In this document: piece after piece, positions 1 to 3,350 of the stretch
Position numbering within the stretch: position 1 is the first letter of the stretch
How the letters are laid out: the number at the start of each line of letters is the position of its first letter
Assembly (NCBI RefSeq): GCF_021390425.1
Contig: NZ_JAJUWY010000004.1
Span: 1 to 64,000 of the forward strand
Origin: Lysobacter sp. GX 14042
GTDB taxonomy: Bacteria; Pseudomonadota; Gammaproteobacteria; Xanthomonadales; Xanthomonadaceae
Length of the DNA: 64,000 nucleotides
Direction of reading: 5' to 3'
Position numbers and translations under genes: made by a program
Notes under the pieces: generated by a model
Seen by the model: the letters and a program-made list of their open reading frames with translations, nothing else
What the model was told of the DNA's origin: nothing
Databases searched by the model: none

Positions 1-1352
1 CACGAGCCTGGCCCAGCGGCAAGTTGAACGGATCGATCAACCGACCCGAAGTACTCCGTCCACTCTACAGCCGCTACTTGATGATTCGGCTTAAGGTAGA
101 TACGTTCCAGTGTAGTCACATCGTGCTGAGCCATGTCGGCTACCAGCGAATTATCTCCCACCGCTCTCGCGAGCCAGTTAACCCTCGTCCCACGCAACTT
201 TTGCGGGGATACAAATGGCCTGCCCAGTTCTACCAAGAGCCTCCGGACGTTCGTGATATCCAGCTGACGCCCGAGCGGAATCCCCGGCCTGCTCAATACC
301 GGGAAAAGAAGAGTGGAGTAGCCAGGCGGGAAGGCCTGCTTACGAAACTTCAGATACCGCTCGAAGTGTGGCCGGTACTCCCCATAAATCTCAAACTCGA
401 CCTCGCCCCTTTTTCGGTGCTTATACTTGCGGAGCGCGTAGCCGTCTAGGATACTCTCGTATCGGAAGTCCCCCATCGTCATTGCCAGCGCTTGCGCGTT
501 GTTCATGCCAGTCTGAGCTATGAAGATCAGGAACTCGGCTGAGGTGCGGAGATTGATAACCTTAAAGCGCTCCGTTAACTCCGGGTGGAGTGAGCGACGA
601 GACCTGAAAGCTCTAATCATTTTGGGCCCTCCGACCTTAAGAGCTTCCGCGTGAACTTCAGCGCGCACTCGGCTGGCTGGTTGCAAGCCGCACCAGAGTT
701 CTTTTGACGACCCGTTTGACTGCAGAGTGACCGTTACGGGCAACGGACCCATACAGTTGTCGAAGGATAGACACGAGACGATATCAAGCAGATCCCCCCC
801 GAAAGCTCGCGTAGTGGCTAAACTGGCCTTGTCTGCCTCCAGCCCAAGCGTCCGCTTGGATTTTCGAGGCTTTTTCAAGCGCGTTCCGGTAGCCATTGAT
901 ACGAATGGAACCTCCATGGCGCGCGCAAAGAGACTCGCCACCGTCTTTCCTTGATGATACGCCACTCGCTCGTTTAGTTTTCGTGCCCGAACACGCTGAT
1001 ACTGATGCTCCACCCACTCCTTGTACCATGCGCGAATGTTCACCAGATCGACATCCCCATCTTGGTCGTCGACGTATCTGTAGAACTCCCTGAGCGCACT
1101 GAAGAAGTTCCGTATCGTTGCATCTCTCGCACCTCGAGCGGCTTCGGCCGAGAGGAACTCAAATACTAGTTCCAATGGCGGCCCTCGCGTTGCGACTGCG
1201 TCGCCAAGCTCTCCCCCGTGGATACGCGGCAGAACACGCGCTGCGTTCGTTCCGGCCGCGCCTCGCCACAGGAGTGCATCCACGTAAAGCTTTGCCTGTC
1301 GCACGGTGTACTGCACCGGCAGGAGCATTGACAGCTCGCAGGAATCACTCAC
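1..1352 (-). CDS. Partial tyrosine-recombinase-like protein with degenerate active site
   Basis: This open frame runs without a stop from about 1352 to the left edge, giving at least 450 residues; the C-terminus is off the window. I chose the GTG at 1350-1352 because a GGAGAGGG Shine-Dalgarno lies just upstream and the frame overlaps the stop of the upstream recombinase by 8 nt, so the two are translationally coupled. An ATG at 1326-1328 is the alternative. The C-terminal half aligns by eye with the tyrosine recombinase fold. The box I motif reads TGMN at about 282-284, where the catalytic Arg is expected. Box II reads QKLRGTR at about 384-390, with His replaced by Gln but Arg387 kept. His410 and the nucleophile Tyr419 (ERIYLKP) are present. 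Loss of the box I Arg suggests an accessory partner rather than a stand-alone integrase. Confidence 0.75.
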   Translation of the reverse strand, partial: MSDSCELSMLLPVQYTVRQAKLYVDALLWRGAAGTNAARVLPRIHGGELGDAVATRGPPLELVFEFLSAEAARGARDATIRNFFSALREFYRYVDDQDGDVDLVNIRAWYKEWVEHQYQRVRARKLNERVAYHQGKTVASLFARAMEVPFVSMATGTRLKKPRKSKRTLGLEADKASLATTRAFGGDLLDIVSCLSFDNCMGPLPVTVTLQSNGSSKELWCGLQPASRVRAEVHAEALKVGGPKMIRAFRSRRSLHPELTERFKVINLRTSAEFLIFIAQTGMNNAQALAMTMGDFRYESILDGYALRKYKHRKRGEVEFEIYGEYRPHFERYLKFRKQAFPPGYSTLLFPVLSRPGIPLGRQLDITNVRRLLVELGRPFVSPQKLRGTRVNWLARAVGDNSLVADMAQHDVTTLERIYLKPNHQVAAVEWTEYFGSVDRSVQLAAGPGS

Positions 1353-2673
1353 TGCCCTCTCCGAGCGGCATATTTCCCTTCCCCCCAAAAAGGAAGGCCG
1401 TGAACTCGTTCGCCCAATACGATTTCACCTCTTGCTGCTGGACGAAGGTGACATAGCGCATCGATGTGGCCTCGTCCTTGTGGAGAAGCAGATCTCGGAT
1501 CAGGCCAATAACGCTTCCCCAAGTAACAGCTGGATCTACGGTTCGCACCCCTGCCTGTGCAAGCGACGTAGCGAAGGTGGCTCGCGTCCGGTGAAACTTA
1601 AAGCCTGTAAGATCGTACCCTTGGGCGGCCGCCGCTTTCCGCAACCGCAACATGTCGACATTAACAGACGGACTCGCACCATTCCTTCGACTTCCATAGG
1701 GCCGCCCAAAGCGATTGAGGAATACGATATTCTTGTGCTCAGGCCGCGCCAAGGCCTCACGCTTGAGTCGACGTTCTGAATTGATGTACGCCTTCACCGA
1801 CGTTAAGAGATCTGTCGGAATAATCACCCGCCCTGTCACGCCGAACTTGGTTTTCACCGGCGCGCCCCGCACCCCCGGACCAATGTGTAAATAGCGGAGC
1901 AAAGTCGTCTCAGCGACGCGTGCGGCGTCGAAAATCGTACCTAGCTTAAGGTCACAGATTGACCCTATACGCATTCCGGTAAAGAACCCAAGTCGTAGCA
2001 TTAGATCAAACTCTGTACTGCTGTGACGCGACGAGATCGCCAGGATCTTGTCGCGCTCCTCCAGGCTCACGGGAAGCAGTCCATCCTCGAGCTTGGCGAT
2101 ACCTCTCTTCCGGTTCGGTATACTCAACTCCGAACTTGCGACCGCAATTGTGCGCTCAAACCCATGAACATCCGTCAGCTTGACAGGAATAATCCGGTCT
2201 CTCCAAAGAGGCGTTGAAGCGGAGATCAAACGTCTCGACTTCACCCAGCGATACCAGCGAATCACGCTGGCCATATGCGCTGATGCCACCGAAGCAGCGA
2301 TCGCACCTGCGTCTCGTGACCTGATCAGGTACCCTCGAAACTGCGTGATAGGGCGATCTCTTTTTGCGGTTGGGAAATGGTTCCAGCGCAGATCGGGCCT
2401 GGACTCCAAGAATTTCATGTATGCAAGCAATCCGAGCGCAACGACCTCCACGCTCGCTAACGATAGCTCATTGGCAATTATTAGCTCTGCCCGCGAGGCG
2501 AAGTATAGGTTGGCCTCGGCCCATGGCTCTCCTGAACTCCAGTAAAGGACTGGCAGCCCGTCTACAGGCTCCTTATTCCCGCGGGCGCGAATAGGGGTTG
2601 TCCAAGTGACCCGCTGCCCCGGGGCCTCGGTCGGAGTGCATGGTGTGAAGCAGATCCTATCTAAGCGTGCCAT
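1345..2673 (-). CDS. Tyrosine-type site-specific recombinase/integrase
   Basis: This 442-residue protein has a complete tyrosine recombinase active site. Arg235 is in FFTGMRIGS, His361 and Arg364 are in FKFHRTRATF, His398 is in LLLHKD, and the nucleophile Tyr407 is in MRYVTF. The N-terminal about 200 residues would be the core-binding domain. It should cut and rejoin DNA to integrate and excise the element. The ATG at 2671-2673 is preceded by GAGAGG at a suitable distance; the frame stays open further upstream only because it reads antisense to aidB. The 3' end overlaps the start of the second recombinase-like gene by 8 nt. Codon use is markedly less GC-rich than in the chromosome to the right. 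Confidence 0.9.
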   Translation of the reverse strand: MARLDRICFTPCTPTEAPGQRVTWTTPIRARGNKEPVDGLPVLYWSSGEPWAEANLYFASRAELIIANELSLASVEVVALGLLAYMKFLESRPDLRWNHFPTAKRDRPITQFRGYLIRSRDAGAIAASVASAHMASVIRWYRWVKSRRLISASTPLWRDRIIPVKLTDVHGFERTIAVASSELSIPNRKRGIAKLEDGLLPVSLEERDKILAISSRHSSTEFDLMLRLGFFTGMRIGSICDLKLGTIFDAARVAETTLLRYLHIGPGVRGAPVKTKFGVTGRVIIPTDLLTSVKAYINSERRLKREALARPEHKNIVFLNRFGRPYGSRRNGASPSVNVDMLRLRKAAAAQGYDLTGFKFHRTRATFATSLAQAGVRTVDPAVTWGSVIGLIRDLLLHKDEATSMRYVTFVQQQEVKSYWANEFTAFLFGGKGNMPLGEGSE

Positions 2674-2771
2674 TGCGCCTCTCGCAGGGCTTGGACAGTG
2701 GGATGTCGCCCTCAGACGCAAGGGTCCATGGTTGCATGTAAGATGTGCGCGTCCACAGGGTACATGAAACC

Positions 2772-3350
2772 TTAGCCCTGCTTCTCGGTCATGCCCATGC
2801 CCAGGGTGATGCCGGCCTTGCCGGCGACCGGCAGCTCGCGCGGGTCGTAGTGTGGCGCGGCGGCCTTGTCGGCCCATGCCGCCAGCGCCGGCTCCCGGCG
2901 CAGTACCGGGACCGCGGCGTGGGTCATGGTCAGTGGACAGCTGGTGCCGGGCTCGACCTGGTGGTGCAGGTAGCTCAGCGCCGCCCGCGCGACGTGGGCG
3001 CCCTCGCCGGCATCGTGCCAGGACAGGCCGGCGACTCCATGGGTGACCGCCGCGTCCATCAGTACGTGGTAGTTCGGGTGGAAAGCGACCCGGTCGATCC
3101 GCCGGCCGGCGGCGTCGTGGGTGCACAGCCGCGGGCGGTCGCGGTGGGCATCGAAGGAGAGTTCGTACAGGGTGCTCCCGGCGAGCGCGCCGTAGCCGGC
3201 GATATGCGACCGGAAACGCGCCGCTCCCTCGCGCTCGAGGGCCTCGCGCAATACCCGGTCGTCATTCCACAGGTCGCGCGGGGCGAACGGCGGCGGCTGG
3301 TTCTCCACCTGGTGGGTGCGGAAGCGTTCGGGCCGGGACTCGATATCCAT
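2772..3350 (-). pseudogene. aidB: aidB, 5' fragment disrupted by the mobile element
   Basis: AidB is an acyl-CoA dehydrogenase-family flavoprotein of the alkylation-damage (Ada) response, normally about 545 residues. Only 192 residues remain. They start with the conserved N-terminal VENQPPPF motif and include the FHPNYHVLMDA and CPLTMTHAAVPVL segments, ending in the FAD-domain motif GMGMTEKQG. In intact homologues this motif continues as GSDV and so on. Here a TAA stop follows at once, at the edge of the AT-richer DNA. The fragment lacks most of the FAD-binding and DNA-binding parts, so it should be non-functional. The remaining two thirds may survive on the far side of the element. The ATG at 3348-3350 is the family-typical start. 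Confidence 0.88.

Follow-up and report, generated by a model that had tools for sequence, protein, structure and literature searches.

The window analysed here is the stretch of bases 1-64000 of contig C19 of Lysobacter sp. GX 14042, whose genome of 2.80 Mb is held in 24 contigs. At its left edge the aidB gene is broken off by the end of a mobile element that encodes a tyrosine recombinase (intA) and the 5' part of a second gene (tfp). Window position 1 is also base 1 of the contig, so that an assembly gap cuts the element, and its third and fourth genes (intB, srap) together with about 37 kb of cargo were located on two other contigs, C6 and C1. The element is very probably a strand-biased circularizing integrative element (SE) of the intA-tfp-intB-srap kind, inserted inside aidB and bearing mainly metal resistance genes (Table 1).

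Table 1. Features of the element and of its target gene. Positions are those of the window unless contig C6 or C1 is named.
Feature	Position	Strand	Basis or remark
intA-side end of the element	1..2775	-	aidB junction compared with intact aidB of relatives; continues on C6, ends on C1
tfp, 5' part, 450 codons, GTG start at 1352	1..1352	-	37% identical to WP_034039553.1, Tfp of SE-PaeBT2436
tfp, last 126 codons	C6:3-383		Tfp about 576 aa in total
intA, tyrosine recombinase, 442 aa	1345..2673	-	Pfam Phage_integrase 2.2e-9, above cut-off
intB	C6:389-2350		search with gene 3 of the Klebsiella relative
Subterminal TGGAC	2751..2755	-	starts 21 nt inward of the spacer
Second copy of TGGAC	2724..2728
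Terminal motif C, 18 nt	2758..2775	-	imperfect inverted repeat with C'
Terminal motif C'	C1:682384-682401
attL spacer GCAGGG, 6 nt (minus-strand reading)	2776..2781	-	same as resident aidB
attR spacer CCAAGG, 6 nt	C1:682378-682383		differs from attL
aidB, N-terminal part (AidB_N)	2772..3350	-	Pfam AidB_N 4e-54; NF008594 positions 3-190
aidB, C-terminal part	C1:681396-682415	-	NF008594 positions 177-517
SoFic-like Fic gene	C6:4428-5663		adjoins HTH gene
Copper stretch, 16.4 kb	C6:11712-28108		98% identical to DNA in G005, another species of the same genus

The preliminary description of this DNA had recognised an intact tyrosine recombinase whose reading frame overlaps by 8 nt that of a second gene of at least 450 residues, and this was borne out: the two open reading frames share bases 1345-1352, and 450 codons of tfp are open at the window edge. 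It had also suspected a mobile element with several recombinases whose further gene and cargo would lie leftwards, and extending the sequence in that direction located the third gene, the cargo and the far end. C6 (28615 bases) opens with the missing 3' end of gene 2, followed by genes 3 and 4. When the gene of a Klebsiella relative was used as query, residues 2-442 of gene 2 matched on C19 and residues 451-570 at C6:24-371. C19 was placed beside C6 because gene 2 is split across both contigs, gene 3 comes next on C6 and the two contig ends have 4 nt in common. The core order is intA-tfp-intB-srap, on one strand and at one end of the element, with tfp straddling the gap. C1 runs 11.5 kb past the C-terminal half of aidB to the contig end at 693926, and by elimination we infer that this end meets the far end of C6, with no overlap; a search of 247 genomes with the C6 end gave no link from C6 to C1. 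The element length in this layout is 2775 + 28615 + 11543 = 42933 bases (about 43 kb). Its G+C content is 64%, and that of the recombination genes alone 56%; the two flanking stretches that were measured have 68-72%.

The catalytic residues of IntA are R235, K276, H361, R364, H398 and Y407. Conservation was read from alignments that included our own and the Klebsiella copies and excluded sequences with coverage below 85% or with stop codons. The R, K, H, R and Y of IntA are kept in 50/50 aligned sequences and the second His (His398) in 49/50, and the third protein, IntB (667 aa), has R, H, R and Y in 44/44 and the second His in 43/44. In Tfp, Asn occupies the Arg-I place in all 46 aligned sequences and the box-II His is not conserved. 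The tfp part shows a weak likeness to integrase N-terminal domains in Pfam (0.0068, under cut-off), and the top Foldseek matches of the predicted Tfp fold (29-row alignment, mean pLDDT 79.5) are XerA and XerH, with E of about 1e-4 and probability 1.00 but a TM-score of only 0.25-0.39 by query length. The protein earlier called a second recombinase thus lacks Arg-I in every homologue aligned. The tyrosine of Tfp is retained in 46/46 sequences and, being kept despite the loss of Arg-I in all of them, may retain a role.

The fourth protein, Srap (147 aa), shares 51% identity with the Klebsiella element's Srap across 131 aa (E 9e-37). The second gene in the Klebsiella plasmid record is WP_034039553.1, which is named in the Tfp-Srap pair of SE-PaeBT2436 (PMC10214605, section 9). 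The best plasmid matches to IntA include integrases adjoining tmexCD-toprJ, 43.9% identical (273 records matched).

The insertion point lies mid-gene, at the TEKQGG codons of aidB. The N-terminal third of the gene ends ...GMGMTEKQG and then meets a stop codon supplied by the element, and because the first half ends in this way the insertion presumably abolishes AidB. A search of nine other genomes of the genus (G001-G009) showed aidB unsplit in every case, and at E 1e-30 the family was found in 16 of 21 genomes, including our own with its split copy. The target motif was present in 14/14 aidB loci examined (L017-L030; the partial match L031 was excluded). Compared with these 14 genes the junction is exact, reading GAGAA-GCAGGG at attL and CCAAGG-CGGCAGC at attR. 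Of the nine same-genus aidB genes, five have GCAGGG and four ACAGGG, and CCAAGG occurs in none of the 14. The 6-bp fingerprint at attL therefore matches aidB, and the footprint at attR would have come from the donor.

At the element's termini, motifs C and C' agree at 10 of 18 positions, and 10/18 or more is reached by 0.8% of random pairs. At the far end TGGAC starts 22 nt inward of the spacer. Among relatives inserted in umuC, xGGAC starts at 21 nt in 15/19 left ends. At the right end, where the pattern allowed 18-24 nt, GTCCA was found in 13/14 genomes, each time at exactly 21 nt from the spacer and preceding it. Among the 14 genomes of these relatives examined, attR was found in 13, and in 8 of those its spacer is not the same as that at attL. 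Pairs of RTGGAC 24-40 nt apart lie upstream of intA in 21/49 left ends, ours included, where mononucleotide shuffles gave an expectation of 0.04, the related loci not being independent of one another. To judge from the sequence, the TGGAC copies that lie 21-22 nt from the spacer at either end probably serve to bind the recombinases, and the spacing common to both ends offers candidates for study.

SEs carry intA-tfp-intB-srap and imperfect inverted repeats C and C' (PMC10214605), and follow a 6-bp rule by which attL retains the 6 bases of the target and attR receives those of the donor (PMC10214605, PMC9345347). The element in aidB shows the core order, R, H, R and Y in IntA and IntB, an incomplete set in Tfp, homology to the Tfp and Srap of SEs, and differing spacers. 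The nearest sister kind is the GInt (ginABCD), which has three recombinase-like genes, a small helper, cargo and imperfect direct border repeats. GInts resemble it in having a four-gene recombination operon at one end, site-specific insertion and large adaptive cargo that includes copper and mercury resistance (PMC5385486), and about 43 kb is nearer the GInt median of 34.9 kb than the SE median of 15.7 kb, although SEs reach 58.5 kb (PMC10214605). As described, however, GInts insert mainly at gene ends or between genes (PMC5385486), whereas ours lies mid-gene, and their defective member is the third protein, GinC (PMC10214605), whereas in this element the second protein is the defective one and IntB, in third place, has the catalytic residues. 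The Klebsiella homologue of gene 2 is, besides, a published SE protein. A GInt, which had been the working identity, is thus unlikely; the pattern of catalytic residues and the Tfp accession known from the literature decided for an SE.

The SE was absent from the candidates of the preliminary description, which had named Tn554-type, RIT and Gamma-Mobile-Trio elements. These also place several tyrosine recombinases side by side, and a small helper and a 6-bp footprint are common to SEs and Tn554 (PMC10214605), but each is very improbable here. Tn554 (TnpA, TnpB, TnpC) has no Tfp counterpart as described in PMC10214605, and our element has four genes with a Tfp. RIT elements consist of three enzymes of 315-410 aa, all with the catalytic Tyr (PMC10214605), in about 3.5 kb, whereas ours have 442, about 576 and 667 aa and are joined by a gene for 147 aa and by cargo. 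None of the NCBIfam models listed for the four recombination proteins (IntA, the tfp part, IntB and Srap) is a Gmt model, and the suggested check against GmtY (NF040693) gave no match at IntA at E 0.01, with two weak matches elsewhere in the genome that fall far under the cut-off. All three kinds were dropped since the descriptions, the protein sizes and the GmtY model do not fit. A plain phage integrase neighbourhood, the alternative that the preliminary description itself had set against a mobile element, is scarcely credible, even with an unrelated island close by: IntA does match Phage_integrase and PHROGs integrases (3.5e-12), but it is the sole PHROGs match among 10 element proteins scanned, the four-gene operon recurs in 39 of 58 related loci, and halves of aidB flank the element on both sides.

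Several points weigh against the assignment to SEs as set out here. The relatives of IntA reach at most 47% identity in the best segment, and the retained tyrosine of Tfp sits uneasily with the statement in PMC10214605 that Tfp is without catalytic residues. The C/C' repeat is weak, and the phase of the spacers was chosen so that both ends align, consistent with the umuC relatives. Among those relatives, four of 19 left ends are without GGAC at the expected place, attL and attR spacers are the same in 5/13 genomes, and left and right ends were paired by genome and not by contig; the RTGGAC pair was not found in 28/49 left ends. The element is in three contigs, and extra sequence may intervene where C6 and C1 are joined without overlap.

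The mechanism proposed is carried over from experiments on other SEs. By analogy, recombination would be the work of IntA and IntB; Tfp would bind DNA as their partner without cutting it, and Srap would be a helper. A circular copy would be made while the 6 bp next to motif C are kept at the donor. On integration the target's GCAGGG would stay at attL and the donor's CCAAGG would end at attR.

One scan of genome contigs gave 58 related loci, and tblastn found all four genes in 39 of them. Left ends were examined at 44 of these loci; 19 read into a YSID-type motif of UmuC and 10 into ComM, six of these at LAPADLPKDGG and four at NPCPC. Pfam supported representatives of UmuC, of each ComM place, and of a multicopper oxidase (L034), a sulfatase (L068) and an integrase (L104), returned nothing for the target in L103 and L105, and left unconfirmed the names given by eye to the targets in G256 (MazG-like) and G053 (ComM-like). 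The N-terminal part of AidB matched as a target in none of the 58 loci, and no SE inserted in aidB was found in the open-access literature searched. The host's own comM is unsplit, and DUF4113, the C-terminal domain of UmuC, had no match in the host genome at 1e-12. In ten comM-type genomes searched, pieces of comM mostly start or end near TIGR00368 positions 74 or 354, with further breaks near 283-304 in G547 and G548. In G552, the genome of L060, comM is in several pieces within C3:299612-383368, as if more than one element had struck.

The 18-nt window around the insertion ranks in the top 13.8% for conservation in aidB (14 genes), the top 11.9% and 8.5% at the two comM places (28 of 30 loci given), 21.4% at a third place in comM, whose position is a guess based on a single locus, and the top 2.8% in umuC (10 of 11 loci). 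The best window within 6 nt ranks at 0.8-6.2%, which is a favourable choice. These ranks are suggestive, not strong, evidence of insertion at conserved target sites. We tentatively propose, while leaning slightly to the other side, that this SE branch aims at DNA for near-invariant protein motifs and re-targets between them as lineages split. Such motifs would include the YSID of UmuC, at least two places in ComM, the copper site of a multicopper oxidase and the TEKQGG of AidB, all with one synapse ruler, in which TGGAC and the 6-nt spacer lie 21-22 nt apart. The branch would also extend beyond the Gammaproteobacteria.

Eight loci that hold all four genes belong to Dechloromonas (L033), Herminiimonas (L034), Zoogloea (L035), Cupriavidus (L036, L051), Herbaspirillum (L055, L065) and Chromobacterium (L058). 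Herminiimonas and Chromobacterium were checked as Betaproteobacteria in the NCBI taxonomy, and we take the other four genera to belong there too. L035 is from a metagenome-assembled genome, on a 33-kb contig, and L034 is on a contig of 763 kb. In a midpoint-rooted tree of IntA and IntB, whose support values were not inspected, the betaproteobacterial members included are interspersed among the gammaproteobacterial ones, and our element forms a deep branch together with that of G256, a genome of its own bacterial family. IntA was found in 4/397 genomes sampled from the order, our own included. The eight operons contradict the published host range of SEs, in which no homologues of Tfp and Srap are reported for Betaproteobacteria (PMC10214605).

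Two other sets of loci stand apart. Distant Burkholderiaceae loci (L078-L085, L087) have an IntA of about 25% identity, and six of the nine match the second and third proteins; they are possibly RIT-like trios. A Vibrio plasmid (L204, NZ_CP071847.1) has four overlapping genes for 482, 646, 704 and 138 aa in an SE-like order, adjoining DNA methyltransferases, and its fourth protein is 30% identical to our Srap.

The nameable cargo consists mainly of copper, mercury-type and divalent-metal genes, and the host thereby acquires efflux genes for copper and other metals. Pfam and/or NCBIfam were used to scan 28 distinct cargo proteins, and 10 had no convincing match. C6 encodes a helix-turn-helix (HTH) protein, a Fic protein, an IS3-type transposase, MerR-like and MerT-like proteins (both below cut-off), a CusA/CzcA pump, a protein with a weak match to the TolC family, a CopM-like protein (below cut-off), a copper P-type ATPase, of which part was scanned, a DUF411 protein and a CopA-type multicopper oxidase. 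C1 encodes a cation diffusion facilitator (CDF) transporter, a MerR-family regulator (no single model above cut-off), a CusA/CzcA pump, a metal-efflux adaptor, an outer-membrane efflux protein and an H-NS-like protein. In the 60 kb fetched around the copper stretch of G005 there was no match to the window's first 10 kb.

The preliminary description had placed any new defence or attack system to the left of position 1, provided that the element carries cargo. What was found is one SoFic-like gene, whose product matches the PADLOC model SoFic (1.8e-65) and has weaker matches to PDC-S04 and PDC-S24. The canonical Fic motif begins with a catalytic His, and here it reads RPFHDGNGR, with Arg at that place. 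An HTH protein matched 16 regulator-type PADLOC models, and the other eight of the 10 cargo proteins scanned had no match.

Compared with known systems, the target aidB and the large metal cargo are the new points of this SE. It carries entire clusters of metal-resistance genes within a gene that serves as target in none of the 58 related loci. SE-6945 and SE-6283 of Vibrio alfacsensis, compared by description, have the same order, intA-CDS2(tfp)-intB-CDS4(srap), and the same 6-bp attL/attR rule, but measure 7.2 and 13.8 kb against about 43 kb for ours (PMC9345347). SE-6283 likewise disrupts a gene, bcp, and it carries a bcp homologue (PMC9345347), whereas there is no AidB call among the 28 cargo proteins scanned here. 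SE-PaeBT2436, which bears tmexCD-toprJ, has four genes in identical order, and through the Klebsiella copy the identities to ours are 44% for IntA, 37% for Tfp, 36% for IntB and 51% for Srap. Its close relatives (L038, L039, L046, L053) have TGGAC at the matching place at their ends, but lie in umuC while ours lies in aidB. Its cargo is a drug efflux pump, whereas ours is metal efflux and copper resistance, and our element forms a separate deep branch in the tree of IntA and IntB. An orphan contig end is thereby assigned to a defined class of mobile elements, the one to which the carriers of tmexCD-toprJ belong.

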